Shown here piece by piece: positions 8,947 to 23,596 of a stretch of 64,000 nucleotides of DNA (its first letter is position 1; each line of letters opens with the position of its first letter). A model generated the notes under the pieces. The model worked only from the letters and a program-made list of their open reading frames with translations, did no database searches and was not told the DNA's origin. This DNA comes from Halioglobus sp. GTDB taxonomy: Bacteria > Pseudomonadota > Gammaproteobacteria > Pseudomonadales > Halieaceae. A program made the position numbers and the translations under genes. Location: positions 1-64,000 of the forward strand of contig JAQWNG010000012.1 in the NCBI GenBank assembly GCA_029246385.1. Direction: 5' to 3'.

Positions 8947-9268
8947 AGATGTCACCGAGCGAGAACATTTGCTGCGTCGGGACTATCATCAGCAGACTGC
9001 GCGTATTCACTGGCATGAGCTGCAAACGTATTATGCTGGCGGTAGCGTAATTAGAGTGGTGTCCGGATTGAATCTGGTGGAGGTTGCGGTGCAACTGGGT
9101 CTCGATAATACGGCCTGCTTTCAGCGCTGGATAGAAAACGGTGACGTGGCGGCCGTTAGCGACGAGCAGGCATTGATCTGGTATGAAGGCAACGCAGAAC
9201 TGTGGGCGGTGGTGGCAGCCCCTTGGGTGCTAGTGCAGCAGCCCGGCGACGCTAACCTTACTGAATAA
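8939..9268 (+). CDS. DUF2288 family protein
   Basis: 109 residues beginning MDEDVTEREHLLRRDY. The sequence follows the DUF2288 pattern: TARIHWHELQTYYAGG, an LNLVEVAVQL helix, a WIENGDVAAVSDEQA segment and the conserved WAVVAAPWVLVQ. No molecular function is known for the family. Its ATG lies inside the end of the hydrolase gene (8-bp overlap), so the two are likely co-translated. It converges with the M48 gene, whose end overlaps it by 11 bp. Confidence 0.85.
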   Translation: MDEDVTEREHLLRRDYHQQTARIHWHELQTYYAGGSVIRVVSGLNLVEVAVQLGLDNTACFQRWIENGDVAAVSDEQALIWYEGNAELWAVVAAPWVLVQQPGDANLTE

Positions 9269-10655
9269 CCTTGACCCAATCTCCAATGCGCAGCTCGCCC
9301 CGTGGATAAAGTCCATTAAGCAGTCGAAGCTGAGCATCTGCATTAGGTATGCGCATGCTTGCCGCAAGACTGGATATGGTGGCGCCGCGTGGCACCTGAA
9401 TATAGTGCACATAATAGCCCGATGAACCTTGTTGCTCCGCCATTAGCGTGGGTCGAAAACTCTCGATAATAGACAGCAGAACGCCATCTTCCCGCGCAAA
9501 GCTTTGTGCCTTGCCGTCAAAAAGATAACTGAGATTATTGAAATCGACGACACCAAGTCGACGCGATTTCTCAGCGCTACTGGCAACCGCTGTGTAGCCT
9601 TTCAATCCGAATTGACGCAACGCAATACCGGCACTTAGGGTCCCGGTAGCATTTTTTTCCAGTACTGATCGAGGCGTTAGCCCAGGGTCTCGACGTCTTA
9701 TACTGATAGACAGCTCTGCACTGCCATCCGGTGCACGGGCGACGATGCTCGTTGAGCCCGCTCTGACTGTCCATCCCAATGGTTGTTCAAACGTGAAGCC
9801 GAGTTTTTTGTGGTAATAGCGATTCTCTGCACGTTCGCTCTGCACGCTTTCGCCCCACACCAATCCTTCTATGTGCCGCTGAAATTCGCCGGGCACAGAC
9901 GGGTCATCAATTTGAGTTTCGCCACCGAGTTGCCCTGCGGTCTTAACCACTGTCTTCAGACGTTGATCGTTGCGCGGATGAGTGGCGTATAAGCCATGAT
10001 AAGACGCGATTGGTTTGCCGCCGTCTTTGGATTTTACGCGTTGGAACTGTTCTTGATCCTTAAGTACGCCAATGACCTCCAGCAATGAATCAGTATCATA
10101 GCCGGACTGATGCATGTACTGAGCGCCCAGTCCATCGGCTTCCAGTTCCATATCTCGACCGTAGCCGCTGATTAATTCGCTACCGTACATATTGGAGGCG
10201 CTTGCAAGGTCGCCGCTACCGGTAAGGACATAGGCGGTGGTCGCCACGACTGAATTTGTCAAGGACGCAGCTTGCTGGCGGTTGTGGTGACTGGCGGTAA
10301 TGTGGCCTATTTCATGGGCCAATACTGCGGCTAACTCCGCCTCGTTTTCCAGATAGGCCAGCAGTCCGCGGTTGACATAGATATACCCTCCCGGCGCGGC
10401 AAAGGCGTTAATGTCTGGGCTGTCGATGACCGTAAAGGTGAAGGTACTGTTGGGTTTGCCACTGTTGGCCACCAGACGTTGACCGATGCGATTGACATAG
10501 GCTTGTAGCGCCGGGTCCTTATAGATTGCGCCCTGAGTGAGCATTTTCGCATGCTGATTTTTACCGACAGAGGCGTTGCCCGCGCAGCCAGACAAAGATA
10601 TGAGTGCCGCTGCCACAACGCCGAAGGAAAACGCTCGAGAGAATTGGTTGCTCAC
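9258..10655 (-). CDS. M48 family metalloprotease lipoprotein with LysM-like C terminus
   Basis: 465 residues. A signal peptide with lipobox LSGC (Cys24) predicts a lipoprotein. The M48 zinc site is HEIGH at 114-118, with the third ligand in MELEAD (about 170-174). The last 50 residues (YVHYIQVPRGATISSLA ... LRIGDWVKVI) look like a LysM-type peptidoglycan-binding module. M48 lipoproteins such as BepA and LoiP act in outer-membrane protein quality control. Here the gene closes a 13-gene run encoding a TolQ-like channel and VWA proteins, 9 bp after the preceding gene, so it may process or clear parts of that complex. That role is inference. Confidence 0.9.
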   Translation of the reverse strand: MSNQFSRAFSFGVVAAALISLSGCAGNASVGKNQHAKMLTQGAIYKDPALQAYVNRIGQRLVANSGKPNSTFTFTVIDSPDINAFAAPGGYIYVNRGLLAYLENEAELAAVLAHEIGHITASHHNRQQAASLTNSVVATTAYVLTGSGDLASASNMYGSELISGYGRDMELEADGLGAQYMHQSGYDTDSLLEVIGVLKDQEQFQRVKSKDGGKPIASYHGLYATHPRNDQRLKTVVKTAGQLGGETQIDDPSVPGEFQRHIEGLVWGESVQSERAENRYYHKKLGFTFEQPLGWTVRAGSTSIVARAPDGSAELSISIRRRDPGLTPRSVLEKNATGTLSAGIALRQFGLKGYTAVASSAEKSRRLGVVDFNNLSYLFDGKAQSFAREDGVLLSIIESFRPTLMAEQQGSSGYYVHYIQVPRGATISSLAASMRIPNADAQLRLLNGLYPRGELRIGDWVKVIQ

Positions 10656-10664
10656 GTCTACCTC

Positions 10665-11321
10665 CTAGTACTCACTGGAGAGGAATTCCAGTAACTGATC
10701 ACCTATGCCATCGCAGGCGGCACCCTGCACCGGCGCGATAATGGGTATCGGGATAATTACAGCTGGCATATAGGACTGGCCTGAGGCACTGGTATTAACC
10801 TGACCCACTTCAGCTTGGTCTGTAAAGTCCCATATAGCCGCCTCATAATTGGCATCATGGCCCCAGGTTCCAAAGCCAAAGCAGCCATTGAGAGAGCAGG
10901 CCATGGACCCAGCGCCTTCAGTGCGCACTGTTGAGCCGTCTAGCCAAATGAGATACTCGAGCTTCAGTGCCAGCATTTTTTCCGCCACCGGTTTTTGCTG
11001 CAGTAGTTGCTCAATATTCTTGGGGTACAGGGGCGCAGTGCGCGGCTCAAACCAGGGATAAAGCGCGTTGAGAAATTCTAGTTCGTCAATTATCCTGATC
11101 GACTCGTCGTGCGAGGTAATATGGTCGCCCACGCAGGCAACGAAGTCCGGTTCGGTTTCATAGTCGCTGCTGTGGCGCCGTCCCAAAATTACCACGCTAG
11201 AATCGCCAATGCCTTCGGTCGGCTCGTTAAATGTCATTTCATCTACGGTGGACGTCACACATGCGGTGGTAAGTGATAGACCCGCGCACACAGCGAGTGT
11301 TCGAAAAAACGGCATATTCAT
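10665..11321 (-). CDS. Lipoprotein of unknown function
   Basis: 218 residues. The signal sequence ends in the lipobox LTTAC. The mature part has a motif SVVILGRRHSSDYETEPDF, a central helix-rich section and a GSMACSLNGCFGFGTWG stretch with two cysteines. I recognise no family. ATG 11321 overlaps the stop of the upstream lipoprotein gene by 4 bp, placing it firmly in the TolQ-VWA run. It is probably tethered in the periplasm or at the outer membrane. Confidence 0.75.
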   Translation of the reverse strand: MNMPFFRTLAVCAGLSLTTACVTSTVDEMTFNEPTEGIGDSSVVILGRRHSSDYETEPDFVACVGDHITSHDESIRIIDELEFLNALYPWFEPRTAPLYPKNIEQLLQQKPVAEKMLALKLEYLIWLDGSTVRTEGAGSMACSLNGCFGFGTWGHDANYEAAIWDFTDQAEVGQVNTSASGQSYMPAVIIPIPIIAPVQGAACDGIGDQLLEFLSSEY

Positions 11322-11971
11322 GGGTCGATTGCATCCGTCAGCGCGCCGCTATCAAGCAGCAAACCTCGCACGGTGGGAATTTGGCTGAACCGGCCCACAA
11401 AATTTGCCCCAGCATCCCGCAGCGCCATCACCGCAGCGAGGTTAACGGCCTCCTGATCGCTCTGTAAAAAGGCGGTGGGTGTTTTTCCGTAACTGCTCAT
11501 AGCCCACTCAGCAATCGGCTGTCCGCCTATCGTGACTAACTCAAAGCGATACCGCATCCAGATTTCATACACTTTAATTTGCGTATGTGCGGGTATAGCG
11601 TACTGCAGTTCCTCGACATGGGGAATCAATACGGCGTCTACAATTGGGCTTGATCGTCCCGCTTTAGGTGGACTGTCGAGTACGACGATCTGCTCGAACA
11701 TGCCGGCCAGCAGGTTATTCCACATTTGTACCTGAGCCGCGCCGGTGTTAACTACCCAACTGGATTCGTTGCGACTTTTGGTGCCATCAAAGAACTCGTG
11801 TTGCCTGAAGTCGTCCCCAAACCACACACCTAAAGTGAGCGGCAGCGGCTCGATCAGCGGAGGTGGGAAGTTACCTTGAACTATAACCTTATTTGGCCCG
11901 CAGCCAGCCAATATACACAACAGCAGTGCCGTAAGTAGGATGCGCCAGTGATGATAGTTAACGGAAGTCAT
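11318..11971 (-). CDS. Lipoprotein of unknown function
   Basis: 217 residues from the chosen start, with the lipobox LAGC after a hydrophobic signal (ILLTALLLCILAGC). The mature region has a strand-rich pattern (LPLTLGVWFGDDFR ... KVYEIWMRYRFELVTIGGQPI ... WAMSSYGKT) and no family I can name. An upstream ATG at 12013 adds 14 residues and a larger overlap; 11971 is preferred because it puts the signal peptide near the N terminus. It still overlaps the second VWA gene by 14 bp. Confidence 0.75.
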   Translation of the reverse strand: MTSVNYHHWRILLTALLLCILAGCGPNKVIVQGNFPPPLIEPLPLTLGVWFGDDFRQHEFFDGTKSRNESSWVVNTGAAQVQMWNNLLAGMFEQIVVLDSPPKAGRSSPIVDAVLIPHVEELQYAIPAHTQIKVYEIWMRYRFELVTIGGQPIAEWAMSSYGKTPTAFLQSDQEAVNLAAVMALRDAGANFVGRFSQIPTVRGLLLDSGALTDAIDP

Positions 11972-12965
11972 TGAGTGCGACAAACGTGCCGCCATTCCGA
12001 TCAGTAAGTTCACGCATTAGCGTGGCAAATCGAATGCCCGTCGTCTGTAGATGAGGTGCACGAGTGAATTGCACCGGAAACCCCACAGCGTGAATGCGCA
12101 CCAGCCGATCGCCATTAGCATCGACTCGATTGATTCGGTCTACGGTATCAATGACCTGAGAGATAGAGTTGCCGGTGAATTCATCTCCGAATACGTAGAT
12201 ACTAATTTTTTTATCCGGCGCCGCGAATGCGCGAATAGCAGTTTCAATACCTTCCACCGGGCTGGAGTTACTAAAAACATTCCAGCTGCGCAGATTTTTT
12301 ATGATCACTTCGCGCCTTCCGGGGGTATCGGGTATCCATCTGCCGCGGTAGCTAGGAAACATGTACTTCCCCATGTCGTTCATGACTTGTATGCCTTTGA
12401 CTTTAGGGTAGATGCTTAGCGTCGCTTGTACCTCTTTAAGTACCCGGTCCCAAGCATAGGAATACATAGAGCCAGATGTATCAATTACAAAAATGATGTA
12501 CTCGCTGTCAACCGGGATGCCACCGATCAATTGATTTTTCGAGCGGTACTGTGTGCCCAAAAGGCGCTCCATTTCTTCGGTCAGCGTCTGCTTTGCAACA
12601 GCTAACTGCCCTGAAATGGCTGAATTGCTGCTGGTTTCCACCTGCAAGCTATCGTGGCGGGACTTGACGCTGGCCATCTGACCACGCAGGATTGCGATAC
12701 GCTCTTCGTGTTCAGACAGCTGTTCCTGTTTTGCGTTCAGGTCCCGGTTGAGAATATTTGTTTCGCCTCGGATCTCAAAAACCTGTTGTTGCAGCTCCAC
12801 CAGCGTGCCTTCGAGGTTTACAGTGGAGGCCTCGATGATTTGCGGTTCTGCCGTTTTGGTGATCATGAGTAGCAGAATGATGGCACCGAAGCCGCAACAG
12901 ATGACATCAAGAAACGACAGTGAAAACTCTTCCGGAGCCCTTCCTCTCCCTCTGCGCCGTGCCAT
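11958..12965 (-). CDS. Membrane-anchored VWA protein with TolR-like N terminus (second of pair)
   Basis: 335 residues from ATG 12965, which joins the previous stop as TGATG. Residues 1-13 are basic (MARRRGRGRAPEE). The segment FSLSFLDVICCGFGAIILL forms one membrane helix with Asp20 at its start. A coiled coil of about 90 residues follows, then a VWA domain with the MIDAS signature DTSGS (Asp162, Ser164, Ser166) and a later FGDEF acidic site. The layout (cytoplasmic tail, Asp-bearing helix, periplasmic domain) copies TolR/ExbD, but a metal-binding VWA domain replaces their periplasmic fold. Partner in function is probably the TolQ-like channel three genes upstream. Confidence 0.85.
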   Translation of the reverse strand: MARRRGRGRAPEEFSLSFLDVICCGFGAIILLLMITKTAEPQIIEASTVNLEGTLVELQQQVFEIRGETNILNRDLNAKQEQLSEHEERIAILRGQMASVKSRHDSLQVETSSNSAISGQLAVAKQTLTEEMERLLGTQYRSKNQLIGGIPVDSEYIIFVIDTSGSMYSYAWDRVLKEVQATLSIYPKVKGIQVMNDMGKYMFPSYRGRWIPDTPGRREVIIKNLRSWNVFSNSSPVEGIETAIRAFAAPDKKISIYVFGDEFTGNSISQVIDTVDRINRVDANGDRLVRIHAVGFPVQFTRAPHLQTTGIRFATLMRELTDRNGGTFVALNDFR

Positions 12966-14056
12966 CAGGGCCAGTCCCTTGAGGGACTCAGCAGTGAGCC
13001 TCGGGTGGACTGTGCGAGTTGCCACAGCTCTGATACTGCCATGGGGTCACCCTCCATCGGGAGCAGTATGATGTTGACCGGCACGTTGGCGGGTAGTTGG
13101 CGGATCGCTTGAGCATACAGTTGCTGACGGGCTTGGCCGCTGACTTTACTGCCGCGTGGGCGAGTCGTTCCCTGCGTTGGAAGGCCGTCAGTAATCAGGA
13201 AAATATTATCGGGCAGTGGCGATAGTTTTTGTAGCGCAATAAAGGCATTTTCTAGACTGGTTCCGCCACTGGGCGTTATTTTACGCAGCACGGCTGATAA
13301 TGTTGTCAGCTGTGGCTGATCCGCGACCTTTAGCCACTTATTGTCGGTGTTGGGTAACGCGGATGTTGCTGCGGTGTTAAAGGCAATGACTTGGTAGTGA
13401 CTGGAGACCGGCAGCTGCGCTGTCAGCCAATCTACCGTGTTAAGACTCTGGGTCCACTTGTCGGACTTGCGTTGAATTGACTCGCTCATATTTCGCAGAC
13501 GGATGATTTGCACCACCTTCTCCGCCAGCATACTGGCAGATACGTCGAGCAGTATGGCAATGTGACTTCCTCCAAGGTTCAAGCCTGTTAAATATTGACG
13601 GTCTCCTTGTCCGATGAAGTCGCGGGCATTATTGCCACCACTGTCTTGGCTTGCCCGTCGCAATGCTTCTACCTCCGCTTCGAGCGACAGCAGTTCAGCC
13701 TTTAAGCGCTCAATATCGCTGCTGTCAGTATAGCCATCAAGTTTGCGCGCTTCTATTTGCGCTTCATAGTTTGCCATATCCTGAGCGATGCGAGTCGCCA
13801 GGCCTTGTGCTTCTGCACTTTTCAGGTCTATCTCTGACAATGTATTACGCAATCGTACTAAGCCTTCTTTGCCTTCAGTGATATCCTCATTGAGTAAATT
13901 AACCTCCGACAAGAGGTCTTCGTTGAGCTCTGTTTTCTGTTCTACGATACCGTGATTCATAATGAGGAATACGAGAATGACCGCGCCAAAGCCGCAGGAC
14001 ATGATGTCCAGAAAACTGAGGTTAAAGGTGGTAAATTCTCGTTTCTTTTTGGCCAT
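12965..14056 (-). CDS. Membrane-anchored VWA protein with TolR-like N terminus (first of pair)
   Basis: 363 residues. Basic tail MAKKKRE, then the membrane segment FNLSFLDIMSCGFGAVILV with Asp17 at its cytoplasmic side, a coiled coil (about 36-135), and a VWA domain (about 163-355). A complete MIDAS is visible: DVSAS at 171-175, Thr266 in SGGTS, and Asp290 in LITDG. It shares the LSFLD-xxx-CGFGA-xIL motif with the next gene but differs through the rest, so they are old paralogues or built on the same anchor. It begins 5 bp after the actin-like gene. Likely binds a protein ligand through a divalent cation. Confidence 0.87.
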   Translation of the reverse strand: MAKKKREFTTFNLSFLDIMSCGFGAVILVFLIMNHGIVEQKTELNEDLLSEVNLLNEDITEGKEGLVRLRNTLSEIDLKSAEAQGLATRIAQDMANYEAQIEARKLDGYTDSSDIERLKAELLSLEAEVEALRRASQDSGGNNARDFIGQGDRQYLTGLNLGGSHIAILLDVSASMLAEKVVQIIRLRNMSESIQRKSDKWTQSLNTVDWLTAQLPVSSHYQVIAFNTAATSALPNTDNKWLKVADQPQLTTLSAVLRKITPSGGTSLENAFIALQKLSPLPDNIFLITDGLPTQGTTRPRGSKVSGQARQQLYAQAIRQLPANVPVNIILLPMEGDPMAVSELWQLAQSTRGSLLSPSRDWP

Positions 14057-14061
14057 GACAG

Positions 14062-15357
14062 CTAGGTCACCACTTCAATTAACAGCGCCACATCGCTGCC
14101 ATCCGGACTGATACTAATTGCGTCGCCACAGAACAAAATTTGGTCAGATCGGTACGTGACGCCATTCACTGTTGCCGCCGTGGTGCTGTCACGAAGTTGC
14201 CAGCCTGCGGCACTGCGATATATATTCCAGCCCGATTCTAGTGGCGTTCCTGATGCAATTAAGGGTCGTGCCTTATGCTGATAAAGAACGTGTGTAGGTT
14301 GCGCTGCCGACACGTGTGCTTCAGTGGCGCGGCGCGATGGTGTTGCCTGCGACACTTTATTTGATGAGTCAGATGAAACCCCCTCTACAGAGAGACACGG
14401 CAGGGCCGTTACGAAGCTGAGAGCTTGTTCACGTTGAACTAAACGGTCCTGATGCGATTGCAGCGCACGACGGACGTCGTCTTCTTGCAAAACCTCTATT
14501 TGCTCAAATTGGTTGGTCAGTCCCGGCAGTAATGTCGCCAGTGGGTCGATAATGACATGATCTTCGGGACGTAGAATCCCTATGGTGTTGCGAGCGCTGT
14601 CGAATAGTCGTTTGCCTGCTGCCTGCAGTTCATGCGCGCTGACGCGCGCCTGATAACCGTTGATCTCCAGATTGGTTTCGGAGGCATTCTGCAGCGTATG
14701 CAAAGCGGCGGGCAGAGCATCGTATAACTGCTGCTCGCTGTCCCCCTTCCGGCGGGGATCGAAACGAGTCTGGCGCACGAACGCGGCGGCAATCAGTTCC
14801 ACTAGTTGCTCCTGCAGTTGCAATAAGCCACAACCGGGTAAAGGTGTAGTGCACTGCAGTTCGGTTTGGTGGTCCTGTCTGATGAGCTCTGAAATCACGG
14901 CCTGATGGAGCTGAATCTCCAAATGAAAAAGGCGGTCGCCGTGGCGATGAAGACTGGCCAGTGCCACGCTGCGATTGACTAACCCCACGGCGTCAAACGG
15001 ACACTGCTCTATGATTCCCAGCAGCAGGGCGAGTTGCTCATGCTGCATGCTTCCCGACACGGCCAGTAATACTTCAGTGGGCCCCTTCGCTTCTTTATGC
15101 AGCTGCTGCAAGTGTGCGTGAGCAAGGTCCCCGTTGTGCCGCGCATGGCCTAGCGAGGGCTGCAATAGTTCGGTGCTCAGTTGCCACCAATAGCGGGTGT
15201 TAATATCCCTTGGCTGCAATCTGGCCGCGGCCCGCGCTGGTGAGCCAAACAGGTACTCTTTTTCATGCAACAGCACATAGCCGGGGCTTTGCACTGTTGT
15301 GCCCTCATGCCATAGCTGCAGGTTGCAGTCGTTGAGATCCAGTACACCAATACTCAT
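14062..15357 (-). CDS. Actin/Hsp70-like protein with C-terminal FHA-like domain
   Basis: 431 residues without signal or membrane segment, hence cytoplasmic. The N-terminal part reads like an actin-fold ATPase: an opening VLDLNDCNLQLWHEG strand-turn, YLFGSPARAAARLQPRDI resembling the Hsp70-type region, and the second-domain pattern VLLAVSGSMQHEQLALLLGI ... GLVNRSVALASL. The last 70 residues contain VNGVTYRSDQILFCGDAISI, the typical late strands of an FHA domain, which binds phosphothreonine peptides. Both assignments are pattern-based and need structural checking. ATG 15357 overlaps the stop of the TolQ-like gene as TAATG, so the two are coupled. Confidence 0.65.
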   Translation of the reverse strand: MSIGVLDLNDCNLQLWHEGTTVQSPGYVLLHEKEYLFGSPARAAARLQPRDINTRYWWQLSTELLQPSLGHARHNGDLAHAHLQQLHKEAKGPTEVLLAVSGSMQHEQLALLLGIIEQCPFDAVGLVNRSVALASLHRHGDRLFHLEIQLHQAVISELIRQDHQTELQCTTPLPGCGLLQLQEQLVELIAAAFVRQTRFDPRRKGDSEQQLYDALPAALHTLQNASETNLEINGYQARVSAHELQAAGKRLFDSARNTIGILRPEDHVIIDPLATLLPGLTNQFEQIEVLQEDDVRRALQSHQDRLVQREQALSFVTALPCLSVEGVSSDSSNKVSQATPSRRATEAHVSAAQPTHVLYQHKARPLIASGTPLESGWNIYRSAAGWQLRDSTTAATVNGVTYRSDQILFCGDAISISPDGSDVALLIEVVT

Positions 15358-16154
15358 TAGTGCGCCACCAGAAAGCGCAACAGACGCTTGTCAGCATAAC
15401 GTTGGTTGTCGAGTACCAAGCGCTCCTGCGACAGTTGTAATTGGTGTAGGCAGAACATAATGATAATGCTTAGCACCAACGCAACGAAGGTGCTGTTGAA
15501 TGCGACTCCTAGACTCGCAGTGACGCCCGAAATATCGCCGGCTACTGCCTTATAGGCCTGTCCCAGTGCATCGCCGATGCCGCGCACGGTGCCGATAAAT
15601 CCGATGGAGGGTATGGCCCATGCGATGTAGCGCACCATCGACATTTCAGAATCGAGTCTATCGGATTCGATTTCACAGTTTTCTTTTATTGTGTCAGAGA
15701 CCGCCTGAATGCTGCCGGTGGTGGCAAATCGTTGCAGCGCTGAGAGTAGCGTGCGCGGCAGCAGATATTCTTGGTCAGCAACCGGCAGTGATTCTATGGC
15801 GCGACTGTATTCGCGAGCATCTTCTGGCAGCACCGTGGTGCCCTCTGGAATATCGAGCAGATGGCGGTCAAGCATATTGCGTTCTCGCATTCCTAGGCGA
15901 GCCTTGTAGCCCATAATCGCCAACGCCCAGATTAGCAGGATAAAGCAAGACTCTTGCTCATAATTGCCGATTACCACCGCCAGACTGCGTGTGCTGACCA
16001 CGTCTTGGCCAGCCGCCTGCTGCGCCGCTTCAAGTTCCAGGTGCGCTTTTGCACTGGGACGTATCACCCCAACGTACAGCGCATGTACGACGATAATAGC
16101 GATCAGCAGTGCGAACAACTGATAGATAAATTCGGATGACATTTTCTGCTTCAT
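15357..16154 (-). CDS. MotA/TolQ/ExbB-like proton channel protein
   Basis: 265 residues. Predicted membrane segments lie near 9-31, 67-84, 172-194 and 207-234. The family core is clear: IPSIGFIGTVRGIGDALGQA followed by GDISGVTASLGVAFNSTFVAL, matching the TolQ/ExbB pattern of a GLLGTVxGM helix and a GI(S)xAL-xT helix with a pore-facing Thr/Ser. Relatives form pentamers that use the proton gradient to move a TolR, ExbD or MotB partner. No such partner gene is present nearby except the two VWA proteins downstream. AGGACA stands before ATG 16154. Confidence 0.9.
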   Translation of the reverse strand: MKQKMSSEFIYQLFALLIAIIVVHALYVGVIRPSAKAHLELEAAQQAAGQDVVSTRSLAVVIGNYEQESCFILLIWALAIMGYKARLGMRERNMLDRHLLDIPEGTTVLPEDAREYSRAIESLPVADQEYLLPRTLLSALQRFATTGSIQAVSDTIKENCEIESDRLDSEMSMVRYIAWAIPSIGFIGTVRGIGDALGQAYKAVAGDISGVTASLGVAFNSTFVALVLSIIIMFCLHQLQLSQERLVLDNQRYADKRLLRFLVAH

Positions 16155-16163
16155 TAGGGTGTC

Positions 16164-16442
16164 CTATATATCGACCGGAAAGGAGACGGGTACGTCCTCG
16201 GAAATTTTTTCTGAGGAGCGGTAATCAAAGGGTGAATTATTGTCTGCGGTTGAGGCGGCTTTTTTTTGTGGTGACCTTTCGGATGCGGTTGCTTGTTGTG
16301 CCACATCGCTTTTATTACTGCTGTCAATAGTGGGTTCTTGCGGGGCTTGTGGCGTATCGGTCGGCACAGACTGGGCAGCCACGGGTGCGCCTAACGGAGA
16401 CAGAGCGAGCAACAGGGGAAGTATTAGTCGTGGTTTGATCAT
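16164..16442 (-). CDS. Small exported protein of the TolQ-VWA cluster
   Basis: 92 residues. A clean signal peptide (MIKPRLILPLLLALSPLGAPVAAQ) is followed by a Ser/Thr/Gln/Ala-rich stretch likely to be disordered, ending in the compact tail SPFDYRSSEKISEDVPVSFP. The tail is the only ordered-looking part and may be a docking peptide for another member of the cluster. It lies 3 bp after the PEGA gene and 9 bp before the TolQ-like gene. No family recognised. Confidence 0.7.
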   Translation of the reverse strand: MIKPRLILPLLLALSPLGAPVAAQSVPTDTPQAPQEPTIDSSNKSDVAQQATASERSPQKKAASTADNNSPFDYRSSEKISEDVPVSFPVDI

Positions 16443-16445
16443 CGG

Positions 16446-18515
16446 TTACTCCGCATAGCGTGCCACGCGGAACCCTACGTCATCTCGGCCCGCTTGCCCA
16501 TAATCTCGGTACGATAGGCGTAACTCCCGCAACTTAGACTGGTCCCAGCTGGCACCTCGGATGACATAATTGTCGCCCGTCTGCTTACCTAATGGGTCTC
16601 TTTGCGTTGCACCGTTAGCAGAGGGTATACCGTAGACGTCGTGCACCCACTCCGAGGTGTTGCTGCCCAAATCGTAGAGACCGTGTTGGTTCGGCTTAAA
16701 AGAGGCTACTGGTGCGCTGACGACGTAGCCATCTGTGTAGCCTGTCAGTGACGATCCGGTGACATAGGCCGAACCGGCATCGGCATAGTTTCCCACAACC
16801 TGCGTCGGCGGAAAAGTGTCACCCCATGGAAACTGCAGGAGAGTTTGGCCGCTGGCACGCGCAGCCCAGGCCCATTCGGCTTCCGACGGCAGGCGATACC
16901 CAGTAGAGCGGGCGTTATAACCTGTGACAATACCGTTCTTTTCCTGATAGAACGCTGGCAACCCTTCCTTCGCGCTGAGCCAGTTGCAGAAGCTGGCGGC
17001 TTGTTGCCAGCTCACCTGCACGGCGGGTTGGTGTTGCTGATTGAGGCTATTGCCCTCGATCTGCCCTGACTTATGGCCGGGCTGGAATTGACGGAATTGT
17101 GCGTTCGTGACCTCCGTCGTTTGCAGATAGAACATGCGTCTTAAGGCGACCGGATGCAGCACTTCGTTGGCTCGGCGCCCGGGCTGACGACGGGACGCCC
17201 CCATCGTAAAGTCTGCCATCGCAGATTCGCCGGGTTTGAACAGCAGCAACGTCTGTCCTAATGCCGTGGTTATTTCCGGTTTGATACGGGCCAGTTTTGC
17301 CGCCTGCTGTGTCTGCAGTCGCACGTCTACCAGCTGCATCAGCCCGGGGCGCGGGGTGACGCTGCGTCGGACAGTGGCGTAACCGTCTAAGCTGATCTCT
17401 ACGGCGTGCTCCACCGCTGGGAGCGATACTGTCTGATTGCTGTTGCGAGAGCGCTGGCCATTGATGCGCACCGTCGCGTTGGCCGGACTGATACTGAAGC
17501 GCACCTCACCCAATTCCGCTTGCAGCGTCACAGTCTGTGTGTCGCTGCCCGCGGCCGGTAGTTGCACAGAGCGGTCGTAGCGTTTATAGCCAGGCTTGAA
17601 TACCGCCAGGCGGTGAGCTCGGTCGGGAATCAGTATCAGCGTCAGTGGGGTTTGACCTTGAAACTCGCCATCAAGGGTCACGTTGGCGCTACTCGGGACG
17701 CTGCTCAAGGTCAGCTCTCCCGCGGCCGGCTGCAGTGTCACCTCGCCTAGATCAAGATTCTCACTGGCGTTAATCTGCAGCGTTTTTTGCCAGTCGGCAT
17801 AGCCCTGCAACTGCAACAGCAGCTGATGCTCACCCTGCAGTATTTCTACCGTGGCTGGTGTTTGTCCTGCCACCTCACCGTCCAACAGAATCGTTGCGCC
17901 CGAGGGTAGGCTTTTCATCGTGACATCTGCCCACGCTGGCGCCAGTTGCAGCTGCAATTGTTGGCGCACGTTACGCCCGGTGATCTGAAGTGTTTGCTCT
18001 GCCGGCAGGTGTCGGGACTCCTCGATCCGAAGCTGGTGCTCCCCTTCTGTCAGTGGGAGGTCGTTCAGCGGCGTCTTCCCAGCGACTTCACCGTCGACGA
18101 TGACAGTGGCGCCTGCGGGTTCGCTGGCCACGGATAATAAGCCTGGCAGAGCCTGCAGCTGCAACTCGATAGACTGGCTGTCGCGGTGATCCACCGTGAC
18201 GGTGGTGGCAAGCGGATAATAGCCCTCCGCCGTTACGTGAACAGCATAATCGCCAGGCCGCAGTAAATAGCGTTTACCGAACGGCAACGCCAGCCCGGAA
18301 ACAGAGACTTGCGCCGAGGTCTGCGCCTTTACCTCTATCATCAGTGAGCGGGCACTGAGCAGGAATAGCATGACCAACACGAACACCCCGAGACAAAAAA
18401 TCAGTACCATGCGTCCGGTCTTGCGAGGGACTGGCGCTTTCGGCGTAGCCTGACTCAACGGAATAAAGTCGCTGGGTGAAATAGTGATGGGTTCAGTTGC
18501 CATGGGTTGCGCCAT
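16446..18515 (-). CDS. Membrane protein with five PEGA repeats and a formylglycine-enzyme-like domain
   Basis: 689 residues. A cytoplasmic tail (1-35) and a membrane helix (36-53) lead to five PEGA-type repeats, roughly 60-123, 126-190, 196-262, 266-332 and 336-402, with signatures such as PAGATVIVDGEVAGKTP and PSGATILLDGEVAGQTP. Residues about 420-689 form an FGE-sulfatase/SUMF1-like domain: TTEVTNAQFRQF, YRLPSEAEWAWAAR, LGSNTSEWVHDVYG, RGASWDQSK and DDVGFRVAR. The cysteine pair that FGE enzymes carry after the RGxSW segment is absent, so it is probably a binding rather than an oxidising domain. It begins 1 bp after the TPR gene. Confidence 0.87.
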   Translation of the reverse strand: MAQPMATEPITISPSDFIPLSQATPKAPVPRKTGRMVLIFCLGVFVLVMLFLLSARSLMIEVKAQTSAQVSVSGLALPFGKRYLLRPGDYAVHVTAEGYYPLATTVTVDHRDSQSIELQLQALPGLLSVASEPAGATVIVDGEVAGKTPLNDLPLTEGEHQLRIEESRHLPAEQTLQITGRNVRQQLQLQLAPAWADVTMKSLPSGATILLDGEVAGQTPATVEILQGEHQLLLQLQGYADWQKTLQINASENLDLGEVTLQPAAGELTLSSVPSSANVTLDGEFQGQTPLTLILIPDRAHRLAVFKPGYKRYDRSVQLPAAGSDTQTVTLQAELGEVRFSISPANATVRINGQRSRNSNQTVSLPAVEHAVEISLDGYATVRRSVTPRPGLMQLVDVRLQTQQAAKLARIKPEITTALGQTLLLFKPGESAMADFTMGASRRQPGRRANEVLHPVALRRMFYLQTTEVTNAQFRQFQPGHKSGQIEGNSLNQQHQPAVQVSWQQAASFCNWLSAKEGLPAFYQEKNGIVTGYNARSTGYRLPSEAEWAWAARASGQTLLQFPWGDTFPPTQVVGNYADAGSAYVTGSSLTGYTDGYVVSAPVASFKPNQHGLYDLGSNTSEWVHDVYGIPSANGATQRDPLGKQTGDNYVIRGASWDQSKLRELRLSYRDYGQAGRDDVGFRVARYAE

Positions 18516-18516
18516 T

Positions 18517-20064
18517 TTAGATAGGGTCTGTGCAGATAATAGTCACCGGGGCAGGGGTGTTGTCGTGTGTAATGTTGAAGCTTTGGCGCACATCGCGATA
18601 CCCATTTCGGGTTCCAGTGGCGGTATAGGTGCCTGGCCGCAGTGTTAACTCTCGCTGTGCAAAGCGCCCCAGCCTCGCAACTTTGTAAACCATTACCTCG
18701 GTTTCTTCATCCGAGCGCAGGGTTATGGCAACAGTGGCGTTGGCCTGGTCCAGCAGTGTTTCCAGTTGGTTGATTTGTTGCTCCAGTACTGGCCCTCGCG
18801 GCGTGATCTGTTTGGCCTGCTGTAATAATTCTGTGGCCGTGCCAGCGACTGCAGCATCTGACAGGCGTTGTGATTGGTGAATGGCCTTATCGAATTGCTG
18901 GTCGAGTTGTGCCCGCGCCCGACTGCGTTTCAGTCCCTCGCTGGCAAACACGATGCTGCTGTCCAGCTTCTGCGCCTGCTCATAGGCATTAACGGCTTGT
19001 TGCCATTGTTCTTGTTGCTCATCTTTTTGCCCTTGCTGATTCAAGGTGCTAAGCCGCTGTGCAGTTTGGGCTGTCGCTACTTGCTCTAGTGCACTAGCCG
19101 CCTCTGTGGAGTCCTGCTGTAATGCAGCGGCGGTAAGGAAGGCTTCCTTAGCGGTGTCAAATCGGCCTTCATTGAGGGCTGCATAGCCTTCACTCATGGC
19201 GTGGTTGAAACTCTGACTCTGTGCCTTCGCTGTGATCCGCTGCAGCTCACTGCGGGCGCGCTGATGCAGCGGATCGAGCGCTGTTGCCTGTTCAAGTAGT
19301 TGCTGCGCCAGCGACAGGTCGCCGTCGGTCTCGGCTGCCGCAGACTGTTCCAGTAAAGGCAGCAACTGCGGCAGCAACTCGGCGCGCTGCTGCAGTGCTA
19401 TCGCATCGCTGCTGTTGGGCTCAATGAGGGCCGCTACTGCCAATTCAGTAAGTGCAGCGCCTGCGTCGCCTTGCTCTATTGCCTGCTGTGCAATCTCAAG
19501 CCGCCGCTTTAGCTCGCCCGGCATGTCATCTCGCAGTGCTTGCAGGGCTGTGAGTGCCTGTTGATAGTTTGCAGTGGCCGCTTCGTATTGCCGGGTTTTA
19601 TAAAGCGCATCGCCCTCTATGGCTAGGGCGGTCACGCCGGCAAATGCTGCAGGTGCCCATTGTTCCACTCCGCGCGCCTGCAGTGTGTCCTGCAGATCCA
19701 GTAACTGCGCTAGCATTTCTTGAGCCTCTTTGCGCAATCGGGCCGCTTGCGCATCGGACCAAGGCGAGGCGTCGGCGCCGGCGGGGGCGGATTTTCCTAC
19801 AAAAGTGTCAGCTTGCCCTGCTGTTGCTATGCTTTTTACAGACGTAGCCGGCGCCGCCACGGTGTTGACTGATTCCAGACTTGTGGGAAGCCAGAAAATC
19901 ACCAATGCGGCCAACAATACTAATCCACCCAATGCTGGCAGCACCCAGGCCGGTGTACCCTGCTGAATGGTGGTCTCTGCGCTGCGCTCGGGTGATGTCG
20001 AGGAGGGGGCCGGTTGGCCTATGTCAAACGGGGTAGGTTTTACTGGGTCGTTGTGGGAAGACAT
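18517..20064 (-). CDS. Single-pass membrane TPR-repeat protein
   Basis: 515 residues. A Pro/Ser-rich cytoplasmic tail (1-39), one membrane helix (40-60, WVLPALGGLVLLAALVIFWLP), then a long helical region with TPR-type repeats, for example EGYAALNEGRFDTAKEAFLTA and WQQAVNAYEQAQKLDSS. The last 70 residues (EVMVYKVARLGRF ... LRPGTYTATGTRNGYRDV) resemble a PEGA repeat, linking it to its downstream neighbour. It probably acts as a periplasmic scaffold in the same complex. A gap of 34 bp separates it from the preceding lipoprotein gene, and 1 bp from the next. Confidence 0.8.
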   Translation of the reverse strand: MSSHNDPVKPTPFDIGQPAPSSTSPERSAETTIQQGTPAWVLPALGGLVLLAALVIFWLPTSLESVNTVAAPATSVKSIATAGQADTFVGKSAPAGADASPWSDAQAARLRKEAQEMLAQLLDLQDTLQARGVEQWAPAAFAGVTALAIEGDALYKTRQYEAATANYQQALTALQALRDDMPGELKRRLEIAQQAIEQGDAGAALTELAVAALIEPNSSDAIALQQRAELLPQLLPLLEQSAAAETDGDLSLAQQLLEQATALDPLHQRARSELQRITAKAQSQSFNHAMSEGYAALNEGRFDTAKEAFLTAAALQQDSTEAASALEQVATAQTAQRLSTLNQQGQKDEQQEQWQQAVNAYEQAQKLDSSIVFASEGLKRSRARAQLDQQFDKAIHQSQRLSDAAVAGTATELLQQAKQITPRGPVLEQQINQLETLLDQANATVAITLRSDEETEVMVYKVARLGRFAQRELTLRPGTYTATGTRNGYRDVRQSFNITHDNTPAPVTIICTDPI

Positions 20065-20098
20065 ACTATGGTCGTACCTTGTGCACCAATGAAATAAA

Positions 20099-21307
20099 TC
20101 AGAGTGTATCAGCAGTGCTTGCAGATTCCTCAGGTAATTCTAGTGCGCCAATTTCAGCGCGATAAATATCACCTAGGAATAGTCGCCACTGGGTGTATTG
20201 TGCTTCGACATTGCCCGTCAGCATGACGGTTTGATCGTCTAGTTCAATGATCTGCGGGGTGATTTCCGCCTCCAGTGACATGCCCAGCTCTTCCAGTGCC
20301 TGCACATGAATCTGCGCTTCATTACGCTTGTCTAACCCGCTTTTGACCAAATAGCCCCCACCCAACACGGCGACCTGGCCCGCGGTTCTGGCAGCGCTGC
20401 TATCGCCTGAGCTGGCGGCCGCAATACCGGCTAAAACGGCAATACCACCTACGATCAATCGGCGCGTGCTCTCGGCACGCAACTCTTGCAGCGCTACAGA
20501 TTCTTCAAAGCTCGCTCTGCGCCACTCCTGATAAGGCTCCAGCATCTGAGCGTCAAAATTGCTGTAATAAACCTGCAGCGCATCCACATAAAGGCGGTCC
20601 CTTTCGCGAATGTCGCGCACGCGCTCCAGCATGGGGTCATTTTCTGCAGGTAGCCGTTTGATTTCATATTCACCGTTGCGCGTCTTTCCTAGGTAACCGC
20701 CAAACGCGTCCGGAGAGAAGTCGCGCGCAAATCGCAGTTCAGTGACTATACGCAGATCGCTGCGATCTCTGGGCGCCAGCTTTTCAAGCTGTTCTAGCAA
20801 ATCGTTGGCAATGGTGTTGTAAACAGCTTGAAAAGGGTCATAAGGGTTACGAGTCGCGGGCTGATAGGCATAGCGGCTGGCTTTACCGGTATACGTTTTG
20901 TCTAGCCAGACATCACCTCTAGCATCAGTCGCGGTGATGTCCAGCTGTAATTCCTCGCCGTCAGAATGCAGAATTTCGCCGCGCACAATTAAGTCGGTGA
21001 TCTGAGTGTCATCGGGCACCACCCGCACAGCGCCCCAAGCGCCGCTGTCCTGTATTGACTCGGACAGGACTAGCGGCATGAATCGAGCTTCGGCGTTGCG
21101 TACCTCCGGGTAAACTTGTTTATCTTCGTCATAGTTGTCTAGGCCCGGATCAAACACCACTACTGATACATCAAGTAACAATGCTTCTGGCACGACCGAG
21201 GATGGTGTTTCGATGCTGGGTACGGAAGTGCTCTTGATCGTTTGACTTACGCAGCCGCCTAACAAAAAGCAGACTGCTATTGCCGCCGGCAGGCGCAAGA
21301 TGCTCAT
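20099..21307 (-). CDS. Lipoprotein of unknown function with glycine-rich hydrophobic segment
   Basis: 402 residues with lipobox LGGC. The N-terminal mature half is strand-rich (LLLDVSVVVFDPGLDNYDED ... ILHSDGEELQLDITATDARG). Near residue 285-315 there is a glycine/alanine-rich hydrophobic stretch ([14 protein letters not shown] ... GQVAVLGGGYLVKSGL) like the glycine-zipper segments of outer-membrane lipoproteins. No family recognised. ATG 21307 overlaps the upstream stop by 4 bp (ATGA). Confidence 0.75.
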   Translation of the reverse strand: MSILRLPAAIAVCFLLGGCVSQTIKSTSVPSIETPSSVVPEALLLDVSVVVFDPGLDNYDEDKQVYPEVRNAEARFMPLVLSESIQDSGAWGAVRVVPDDTQITDLIVRGEILHSDGEELQLDITATDARGDVWLDKTYTGKASRYAYQPATRNPYDPFQAVYNTIANDLLEQLEKLAPRDRSDLRIVTELRFARDFSPDAFGGYLGKTRNGEYEIKRLPAENDPMLERVRDIRERDRLYVDALQVYYSNFDAQMLEPYQEWRRASFEESVALQELRAESTRRLIVGGIAVLAGIAAASSGDSSAARTAGQVAVLGGGYLVKSGLDKRNEAQIHVQALEELGMSLEAEITPQIIELDDQTVMLTGNVEAQYTQWRLFLGDIYRAEIGALELPEESASTADTL

Positions 21308-22410
21308 TGTTTGATGCCCGTATAGTTGCGATATTCATCCCACAGCCTTTCCCTGACAGCGGGATCAGGCTCCCGCATCGCGGCCTCGCGCAGTTGCCTC
21401 GCCACGACGTCGTCGTTGTTACCATTGGGAATATCTGCCGGAACAGGGTATTTCGCTGTGTTTTGCGGCACGCTGCCGCCCGTCGGTGCGCCGCCCATGC
21501 CACCGCCGGTGCTGTAGCCGCCCGCGTCTGCGGTGTCGCTTGCATAGGGACTGTCACCTTGTCCAGCGCCACCTGCAGTGGCTATCGTCGTGGGTGGCCG
21601 CTTAGCAGTCTGCGCGCGCGCAGCGGTCCGCTGTCGCGCCTGAGTTTCCATGATTATGGTGTCAAATTCTCCCGCGCCTTGTTCCAATTGCGCGTCGAGT
21701 ATCGCCACCTGCTCGGCGGAGGTCAGCGGTCCGCTGCCGCCTGTGGGCATCCCCGTTGGTGAGCCGTAACCGCCGCTGCTTTCTGGCCTACTCGCGTGGA
21801 CACCATAAAGGCCGCTGCCGTTATAATGGTTAGGGCGCCCGCTGTCCGCTGTCCCACTGTTTGGTTGACCGGTATTTTCAGCGGCACTCGCGACAACTGC
21901 AGCGTCACCGGATTCGCTAGCCTTTCGTGGCGCTGATGGCAGGCTGGGTTCATCGCGCAAGTCCGGCAGGTTGTCATCGCTGGCGACTCCGTCACCAAAA
22001 CCGGGTTCCATGCTGTCTCCGTCACTGCTGTTTGGTTCTGAGCCACTGTGGGCGATCTGATTGTCACTCTTGTCGCTGGACGTTTGAGCATCATCTCCCG
22101 GTGGCTCATTGGTGTCGCCGCTGGCAGCAGTTCTCTGGCTCTGGTTATCACCGGATTGCTTGCTACCCTCGCTCGCGGCTGCGGAAGAAGGTCTCGACGG
22201 TTGGCTGGCGCTGCTGGCGGATGAGCTACTGCTGGTACTTCCGGCAGAACTACTGGAACTGCTGATCGGCGGCGGGCTGGGTGCGGATGTCTGCGGTGGT
22301 GTCTGCGGCTGTGTTGGATTGCTGGCAGTAGGGCAGCCGGATAGAAAAAGGCAGAGACAGACGGCAGCGCCGATGCGGTAAAGTTGCAGGGATGGAGGAT
22401 TATTGAACAT
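21304..22410 (-). CDS. Low-complexity polyserine lipoprotein
   Basis: 368 residues. The lipobox LSGC is followed by a Pro/Thr/Gln stretch, an almost pure serine run (SSSSSSAGSTSSSSSASSAS), then about 200 residues rich in Ser, Gly, Asp and Asn. Only two parts look ordered: LTSAEQVAILDAQLEQGAGE in the middle, and the C-terminal helix DVVARQLREAAMREPDPAVR with ERLWDEYRNYTG. It is probably an extended spacer tethered to a membrane with a C-terminal docking helix. It overlaps the TonB-like gene by 11 bp and the next lipoprotein by 4 bp. Confidence 0.8.
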   Translation of the reverse strand: MFNNPPSLQLYRIGAAVCLCLFLSGCPTASNPTQPQTPPQTSAPSPPPISSSSSSAGSTSSSSSASSASQPSRPSSAAASEGSKQSGDNQSQRTAASGDTNEPPGDDAQTSSDKSDNQIAHSGSEPNSSDGDSMEPGFGDGVASDDNLPDLRDEPSLPSAPRKASESGDAAVVASAAENTGQPNSGTADSGRPNHYNGSGLYGVHASRPESSGGYGSPTGMPTGGSGPLTSAEQVAILDAQLEQGAGEFDTIIMETQARQRTAARAQTAKRPPTTIATAGGAGQGDSPYASDTADAGGYSTGGGMGGAPTGGSVPQNTAKYPVPADIPNGNNDDVVARQLREAAMREPDPAVRERLWDEYRNYTGIKQ

Positions 22411-23596
22411 TGAATGCCTTCACAATTTTTTCTGTCTCTAGTGGTTGCCCGTCGACGAAACGCGGCCGAAAAACGGTCTTACGAATCTGCTTTATCAGCT
22501 GCTTAGCTTGCTTAACAGACTCTTCATTATCACCTAAACGGTCCAAATCTTGAACTCTGCCTTGTTCATCGACAGTGAATTCTACCAAGACGTCGGCCTC
22601 TTTTGGGTCTATCGAGGGCGGCAGCGGTGCAAGGCCGGCAATGTCCGGCAATGCTATCGGTTGACCAAATACCCGCTGCAGCTTAACTTGGGCATCGCCT
22701 TCCCCCGCAAGTTCCGTTTCTGCCCTTTGATAGGCTTGCCATGCGGCGGCTGTTCGACCATTCCATAGATTCCAGTCCCCCAGCATTATCTGAGTCCGAA
22801 CGATATTTGGCTCAATGCGCGCAATGGCTTCAATAATATTATTGCCTTGACGATAACTGTCGGCGCGGTAGGCTTTAAATTGCAGCAGGGGTTTAGGGGG
22901 GCGCTCGTCTTCACTGAATGCTCGGTCGGATTCTTGCCAGACATAGCCCGCAATAAGATATTGTGTTGCTAATAGGCCTCTTAGAGGGGCTAGCAGTTTT
23001 ACGGATGTCTCTTCTTTTTCTCCTGCCGCCACATTACTCAGTGCCTGCCGGTAGAGCTCCGTCATATTGACCAGCCGCAGATATCCGTGTTCACCTAGTC
23101 CCAATTGATACGCATCATATTGCCATTGTGCTTGCTGCATTAAAGCCGCAGTTAACGCATCGCCAGCTTCTAGACTGCGGGTTTGTACACGGTAGAGGTA
23201 GTTTTGCCGCTCGTCTGCCATGGTGTAGTCTTGTATTGCGAGATTGCTGGCGATTTCGCCCTGCAGTAACGGTATCTGCTGCGCGCAGTAAAGCCCTTCG
23301 TTGACACGCGCAAGGTGTATGCCGCGCCTAAATACCGCAATTGCTTGTCTGTGCCGCCCTTGCGATTGCAGTTCCAGCGCAAAACCGAGTAGTAGCTCCG
23401 ATAATTCTGCGGCATAAGCGCCATCCTCAGATTCAGTAGCCGCTATGGCACGGGCATAGGCTTGTTCTTCCTGCGACTTAGCATTCGGTACTGGGTCATT
23501 GGCTGTCGTTTCTTGGGCGCACAAGGGCAGACTGTAAAGCGCGAACACGGCGAATAGGATGGACAGGAGCGGGGTAGCAATCGATGGTTTGTTCAT
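22400..23596 (-). CDS. Secreted TPR-like protein with TonB-type C-terminal domain
   Basis: 398 residues. A signal peptide (cleavage likely after LPLCAQ) is followed by helical repeats of TPR type (about 45-300, for example GRHRQAIAVFRRGIHLA and GRTAAAWQAYQRAETEL). The final 75 residues have the TonB C-terminal pattern: DVLVEFTVDEQGRVQDL, a helix, then VFRPRFVDGQPLETEKIV. True TonB has an N-terminal membrane anchor, which this protein lacks. First gene of the 13-gene run; a 139-bp divergent gap to the thioesterase gene must hold the operon promoter. Confidence 0.83.
   Translation of the reverse strand: MNKPSIATPLLSILFAVFALYSLPLCAQETTANDPVPNAKSQEEQAYARAIAATESEDGAYAAELSELLLGFALELQSQGRHRQAIAVFRRGIHLARVNEGLYCAQQIPLLQGEIASNLAIQDYTMADERQNYLYRVQTRSLEAGDALTAALMQQAQWQYDAYQLGLGEHGYLRLVNMTELYRQALSNVAAGEKEETSVKLLAPLRGLLATQYLIAGYVWQESDRAFSEDERPPKPLLQFKAYRADSYRQGNNIIEAIARIEPNIVRTQIMLGDWNLWNGRTAAAWQAYQRAETELAGEGDAQVKLQRVFGQPIALPDIAGLAPLPPSIDPKEADVLVEFTVDEQGRVQDLDRLGDNEESVKQAKQLIKQIRKTVFRPRFVDGQPLETEKIVKAFNVQ

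Follow-up and report, generated by a model that had tools for sequence, protein, structure and literature searches.

How a TolQ-like channel might work with neither TolR nor ExbD encoded beside it is the question raised by a gene cluster at positions 9258 to 23596 of a 64,000-bp stretch of Halioglobus sp. DNA (the window; contig JAQWNG010000012.1). The check for open reading frames (ORFs) in the window gave thirteen in this interval, every one on the minus strand and designated g1 to g13, with junctions from g1 to g13 of -11, -4, +34, +1, +3, +9, -1, +5, -1, -14, -4 and +9 bp, assuming that g10 starts at the ATG at 12965. These recomputed values agree with a preliminary description of the locus, which had reported thirteen same-strand genes joined by anything from a 14-bp overlap to gaps below 10 bp, with a single gap of 34 bp. 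All thirteen proteins were scanned against Pfam and ten of the thirteen against NCBIfam. The analysis indicated that the locus encodes a real, conserved, probably proton-driven trans-envelope machine, in which two paralogous VWA proteins most likely provide the Asp-bearing partner of the channel. The host bacterium is probably marine.

The channel candidate is g7 (15357..16154), a member of the TolQ/ExbB/MotA family that matched MotA_ExbB (PF01618) in Pfam at 51.6 bits against a cut-off of 22.9 (E 1e-13). The same genome contains four ExbD genes and five of the MotA_ExbB type, of which g7 is the only one without an ExbD neighbour. Judged by its PDB match, the MotA_ExbB protein encoded on contig 7 represents a true TolQ, and its gene has an ExbD-family neighbour; both of its pore threonines align with Thr189 and Thr222 of g7, each conserved in 97 of 97 sequences (the residue counts for TolQ and VWA proteins include at least one contig twice, as L023 and L126).

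The genes g9 (12965..14056) and g10 (11958..12965) encode VWA1 and VWA2, which are full-length paralogues (hhalign probability 99.6), each with an Asp-bearing helix, a coiled-coil-like stalk and a VWA head with the residues of a metal ion-dependent adhesion site (MIDAS). Pfam matches to the heads were marginal and under cut-off (VWA_3, 1.7e-5, and VWA_2, 3.8e-5, for VWA1; VWA_2, 0.02, for VWA2), and the MIDAS motif DxSxS was conserved in 102/102 to 104/104 sequences across the VWA heads, with one exception at one residue, in support of the preliminary assignment of two VWA proteins. No match to TolR/ExbD (PF02472) was found in either protein using Pfam. Both N-termini consist of a short basic tail followed by the sole membrane helix, which begins with an invariant Asp. 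In VWA1 the helix region (residues 10-35; 13952..14029, minus strand) is the best-conserved part of the protein, with Asp17, Cys21, Gly24 and Leu28 each present in 104/104 sequences; in the corresponding region of VWA2 (residues 13-38 counted from the ATG at 12965; 12852..12929, minus strand), Asp, Cys and Gly were each found in 103/103 and Leu in 102/103. The spacing is the same in both helices, with Cys at +4, Gly at +7 and Leu at +11 relative to Asp, and places a conserved stripe on one face. Mean consensus was highest in the helices (0.86 over 34 rows and 0.88 over 21 rows), compared with 0.51-0.79 for coils and heads; the coils scored lowest (0.51 and 0.63) and are nearly constant in length (gap fractions 0.011 and 0.000). 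Comparison of the window with the locus of G021 (L024:2439-4605) gave 73% identity for TolQ, 81 and 92% for the helices and 37 and 31% for the VWA heads, indicating that the helix follows the channel and the head does not. Because each VWA helix carries an invariant Asp and the TolQ-like protein keeps both pore threonines, the VWA pair most likely supplies the Asp partner that seemed to be lacking. The earlier statement that the cluster lacks TolR/ExbD thus holds at the level of protein families, while an Asp partner as such is probably not missing.

Alternatively, VWA1 and VWA2 might ride on the outside of the g7 ring in the manner of TolA or TonB, with the pore filled by an ExbD or TolR encoded elsewhere. 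Four ExbD genes are available elsewhere in the genome, and PMC12204202 describes a second VWA family that behaves in such a TolA/TonB-like way. However, all four ExbD genes adjoin ExbB/TolQ genes of their own, the Asp is invariant in the VWA helices, and according to PMC12204202 the SHLS motor-binding motif is absent from that second family. Homology between the VWA and ExbD helices, the lack of which would favour riders outside the ring, was not detected. Aligned by hhalign with the ExbD/TolR set of the same genome, a weak test with four rows only, VWA1 scored 12.6 and VWA2 10.3, not significant next to 100 column shuffles that reached 15.9 and 18.1. This result weighs against an axle role; it counts against ExbD homology, not against ExbD-like working. 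As this homology was not detected, the axle role rests on the position of the Asp, topology, linkage and the models of others. Overall, we consider riders outside the ring improbable and prefer VWA1 and VWA2 as occupants of the pore.

Conservation of the locus was assessed using a VWA1 profile against 84,980 species genomes, which yielded at least 576 relatives. The best 80 loci were analysed; being the closest, they overstate uniformity. Across these best 80 of at least 576, the gene order recurred on one strand from Halieaceae to Microbulbifer, Thalassomonas and Colwellia, and the order from g1 to g13 was never broken except by a stray reversed g11 match in L128, additional to the 77 loci with g11. 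Within the same 80 loci, g1 was present in 56, g2 in 57, g3 in 62, g4 in 66, g5 in 69, g6 in 68, TolQ in 74, g8 in 79, VWA1 in 80, VWA2 in 79, g11 in 77, g12 in 71 and g13 in 64. A VWA2 match of 25% identity at a contig end (L096) is probably VWA1 itself. Some of the shortfalls are due to the ends of contigs or flanks and others are real, the latter including the absence of g1-g5 from L120, of g12 and g13 from L126 and L130, and of g8 from L137. Its recurrence in one order and on one strand in several genera shows that the operon is more than a chance arrangement. Among the matches listed, named isolates with the operon include Parahaliea mediterranea and several Microbulbifer. The operon was also seen in three records titled Klebsiella pneumoniae (L125, L126 and L127), titles that look mislabelled.

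In a class-wide draw of 370 genomes, VWA1 was present in 32 and a g7-type TolQ in the same 32 at 221 bits or more; the lone extra TolQ match (G289) reached 92.7 bits. The lipoprotein gene g3 was found in 28 of the 32 genomes with VWA1 (not found in G116, G236, G329 and G332) and in one of the 338 without it (G211). In that genome (L203:7873-10674) we observed only broken pieces of g3 and g4 amid repeated ORFs that by eye resemble transposases, which suggests that it is losing or has lost the operon. A g3 paralogue was also seen outside the operon on contig 39 of the Halioglobus genome itself (L204:9055-10179), where none of the other operon genes was present in the 19.9 kb examined.

A phylum-wide draw of 397 genomes contained VWA2 in 13, ten of them from one family of another class, and the order g2-g3-g4-g5-TolQ-VWA1-VWA2 was found in 7/7 loci read from those ten. 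These distant members all show the seven-gene set, and the core therefore consists of seven genes, encoding two lipoproteins (g2 and g3), a TPR protein, a PEGA/FGE protein, the TolQ-like protein, VWA1 and VWA2. All seven were present in 87 of 113 loci, some of these being cut. Only particular lineages add g1, g11, g12 and g13 to this core; g6 and g8 occur often but not throughout. The two VWA genes were adjacent in 112/113 loci, and TolQ, matched in 106/113, lay no more than 2.5 kb from a VWA gene in 106/106, so that the synteny of TolQ with both VWA genes suggested for a check in the preliminary description is indeed conserved. Using a profile of the ExbDs of the Halioglobus genome, an ExbD-like ORF was detected in 5/113 loci, in each case separated from the VWA pair by more than 6 kb. 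For the other families, pairwise distances were correlated with those of VWA1 (r 0.51-0.92), which shows shared descent and nothing more. Synteny, co-occurrence and the conserved motor residues all speak for a single proton-driven envelope machine, with a core of seven genes in place of the thirteen first proposed.

These data also bear on a second explanation, in which the VWA pair would be a MIDAS-based adhesion, chaperone or assembly factor similar to Bat or MoxR-VWA systems and the TolQ-like protein a scaffold, not a proton motor. VWA heads with a MIDAS usually bind ligands, and genes for VWA, TPR and M48 protease proteins would suit an assembly or quality-control module. Against this, the VWA helices and both pore threonines are among the most constrained features, VWA1 and the g7-type TolQ occurred in the same 32 genomes, and no linked ATPase showed up: among 19 distant loci, no accessory gene outside the labelled families recurred in three or more, the families themselves not being annotated. 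We therefore see little chance of a scaffold function and retain the view of g7 as the channel of a motor.

The Asp helix was also found beside sister TolQs. In one genome (G018, L025:7702-9450), a second, diverged TolQ is followed by a protein of 283 residues whose first 38 residues matched the N-termini of VWA1 and VWA2 with scores of 44.2 and 36.4, compared with maxima of 17.9 and 18.1 in 200 shuffles; no VWA domain was matched in this protein. Of 166 genomes searched with the sister TolQ, 12 contained a match, those other than the sister kind remaining below 90 bits; besides G018, the sister kind was present in G066 and G069 (46-47% identity). In G069 (L220:6078-13999), it is clustered with genes for an FHA protein, a PP2C, two trypsin-like/FHA proteins and an Asp-helix VWA protein. 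The helix of this last protein scored 40.6 and 32.5, with 200 shuffles reaching 16.7 and 15.2, and its VWA domain fell barely under the cut-off (26.7 of 27 bits). The sister TolQ of G066 adjoins FHA and PP2C genes on a contig of 3.9 kb, too short to show a partner. The two loci seen thus indicate that the Asp helix accompanying this clade of TolQs bears different heads. A search for the alternate-head protein of G018 in 202 genomes of the class found none, in a listing that included no genome known to carry it. Further on in the G069 cluster we observed the start of an ORF that by eye is kinase-like, and the cluster looks like a phospho-regulated TolQ-VWA system. The weak TolQ relative in G289 (L205:1433-3214) is flanked on both sides by FHA-type genes and cut by the contig end.

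Among the core partners, g5 (16446..18515, minus strand, as for all genes here) has a single N-terminal membrane helix, five PEGA stretches (Pfam, 2e-57) and a C-terminal domain similar to formylglycine-generating enzyme (FGE-sulfatase, 3.7e-39; residues 435-686, 16458..17213). The best PDB matches of this domain were 9myj/9p6h ('Lipoprotein, putative', 2.4e-17) and PorK (9mzu/9ots, 3.4e-17), with FGE enzymes ranking behind (4.2e-12), and GldK came first in NCBIfam, far under its cut-off (98.9 of 350 bits). After residue 400, one Cys was present in 31/34 g5 orthologues and none in 3/34; with no more than one Cys in 34/34, the catalytic Cys pair of formylglycine-generating enzyme is absent. The FGE fold of PorK, likewise without these Cys residues, is described in PMC12421860 as a docking hub, and PorKN/GldJKN in PMC12635249 as a motor-driven track. 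The core protein g4 (18517..20064) is a TPR protein (TPR_2, 2.3e-9) with a single N-terminal membrane helix. Pfam matches thus bore out the labels first given to g4 and g5, and likewise those of TolQ/ExbB-like and M48 proteins. The lipoproteins g2 (21304..22410), of low complexity with a conserved C-terminus, and g3 (20099..21307), with a hydrophobic Gly/Ala-rich segment at residues 284-302, gave no credible Pfam match.

The gene between TolQ and VWA1, g8 (14062..15357), encodes a protein in which no signal peptide or strong membrane helix was seen. Its C-terminal part gave a weak FHA match (the FHA of EssC, E 0.0013), to which its PDB matches were confined, and Pfam gave no match at E 0.01 in 33 members; the earlier label of an actin-like/FHA protein is therefore weakly supported for FHA and unsupported for actin. 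As FHA proteins recur beside sister TolQs, a regulatory role of the FHA-like part of g8 is plausible. The gene is common and absent in some lineages.

The remaining genes are accessory or variable. The exported protein g1 (22400..23596) had been described as a TPR protein with a TonB-like tail; TonB_C was matched below threshold (13.7 bits against a cut-off of 24.6) and Pfam gave no match to TPR. The small exported protein g6 (16164..16442) is common but was not found in the most distant loci. The lipoproteins g11 (11318..11971) and g12 (10665..11321) precede g13 (9258..10655), an M48 metalloprotease lipoprotein (Peptidase_M48, 9.6e-38). Lipobox-like motifs were present in g2, g3, g11, g12 and g13, consistent with their first description as lipoproteins, and the lipobox Cys was invariant among the aligned orthologues of g3, g11 and g12. 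No PDB match at E 1 was obtained for g3 or g12, and the matches of g11 (best E 0.22) seem to be due to chance. We rejected the possibility that g3, g11 and g12 are three copies of one fold, as hhalign aligned only their signal-peptide regions and a short flank between g3 and g11.

Taken together, we consider it reasonably likely, on the strength of these comparisons, that the locus encodes a proton-driven motor of the 5:2 type with a heterodimeric VWA axle that acts on an outer-membrane lipoprotein assembly. In this model g7 would form the channel ring, enclosing one VWA1 and one VWA2 helix as a heterodimeric axle, so that the Asp of each helix, observed in both, would face the observed Thr residues of the ring. 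Passage of protons would turn or tilt the VWA pair, and the coiled-coil-like stalks would transmit this motion across the periplasm to the two MIDAS-bearing heads, which may grip and release their partners. These would be g5, as an FGE-like hub on a PEGA stalk, together with the TPR protein g4 and the core lipoproteins g2 and g3; their membership is shown by synteny, and their contacts and outer-membrane location are predicted. Where present, g8 might act from the cytoplasmic side, its FHA-like part gating the motor, as the FHA and PP2C genes beside sister TolQs suggest. The output would be mechanical work on the outer-membrane lipoprotein assembly, in principle as PorLM drives the PorKN ring, and may serve surface movement, export or envelope maintenance.

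Besides the failed alignment with ExbD, several points weigh against this model. The g7 profile matched no PDB chain at E 0.1, TolQ is on a different contig from the VWA pair in G236 and is placed after VWA2 in G119 and G329, and a published phenotype or demonstrated function of the operon was not found. In addition, g8 is missing from several lineages, and FHA control is hence not universal.

A further motor with a similar channel is Zorya, which shares with the operon a MotA/ExbB-type motor and a non-flagellar partner. An anti-phage defence motor of this kind could be suspected from a marginal match of g7 to ZorA (E 0.0023), and other weak defence matches were PDC-S14 to g8 (0.0093) and LmuB to VWA1 (0.00065), in each case among the ten of thirteen proteins scanned. 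The same ten proteins gave no match to ZorB, ZorC or ZorD, a search with VWA2 through 72,556 plasmid and 50,697 phage records gave no match, and the operon is syntenic across genera and rich in lipoproteins. A role in defence was rejected and is very improbable. The operon is similar to Tol-Pal and ExbBD-TonB in channel family (PF01618) and pore Thr; it differs in that its thirteen proteins include no match to TolR/ExbD, TolB or Pal and only the sub-threshold TonB_C of g1, and a TolQ beside an ExbD-family gene is encoded separately in the genome. The preliminary exclusion of Tol-Pal, Exb-TonB and Zorya by gene content therefore stands.

To our knowledge, descriptions of the known 5:2 motors (Mot, Exb, Tol, Gld and Zor) give them an axle made of the same protein twice. 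A motor that strictly requires two different axle proteins would, if real, be asymmetric by nature and would offer a way of testing how 5:2 motors turn.

The closest described systems are the TolQ-vWA systems of PMC12204202 (2025; Fig. 4c-d), of which the operon is very probably a member. As described there, they have paired heterologous vWA genes adjoining tolQ, no tolR/exbD, an Asp helix and a Thr ring; the pair was modelled as a dimeric partner, with AlphaFold 3 placing the paired Asp helices so as to fill a TolQ-like pentamer. They were reported mainly from Proteobacteria and Verrucomicrobia, with function unknown. The likeness to the Idiomarina family of that article is by description, not by direct sequence comparison. 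PEGA and FGE do not appear in its text, although its figure and supplements may show neighbours, and its section 8 mentions no lipoprotein or FHA neighbours for the TolQ-vWA family. The text available for PMC12505986 contains no mention of VWA, and no other literature on TolQ with paired VWA was recognised by titles and beginnings of abstracts, a scope that left aside preprints and most subscription papers. The TolQ-VWA core is thus already known as a prediction, and the suggestion of a wholly undescribed system is not upheld; new here are the operon-wide synteny, the co-occurrence, the PorK-like FGE hub without the Cys pair and the modular axle helix. The operon supplies concrete partners, the PEGA/FGE hub and the g3 lipoprotein, for a motor with only a predicted core so far and no known function.

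A bolder proposal is that the system is a proteobacterial counterpart of the gliding/type 9 secretion motor, 5:2 with an obligate heterodimeric axle, its Asp helix a module with different heads, which would set an outer-membrane lipoprotein/FGE assembly in motion and be controlled through FHA (phosphothreonine); we put this forward tentatively and consider it rather doubtful. No match to GldL/GldM, PorN or Sov was found in the operon proteins by Pfam (13 of 13 scanned) or NCBIfam (10 of 13), the rest of the genome not having been searched. Both the operon and the PorLM-PorKN and GldLM-GldKJN systems combine an inner-membrane proton motor with an FGE-like protein that has no catalytic Cys pair. 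They differ in that PorK and GldK are outer-membrane lipoproteins, whereas the FGE-like domain of g5 is carried by a PEGA stalk that has a membrane helix at its N-terminus, and in that the heads of the axle are VWA domains here.

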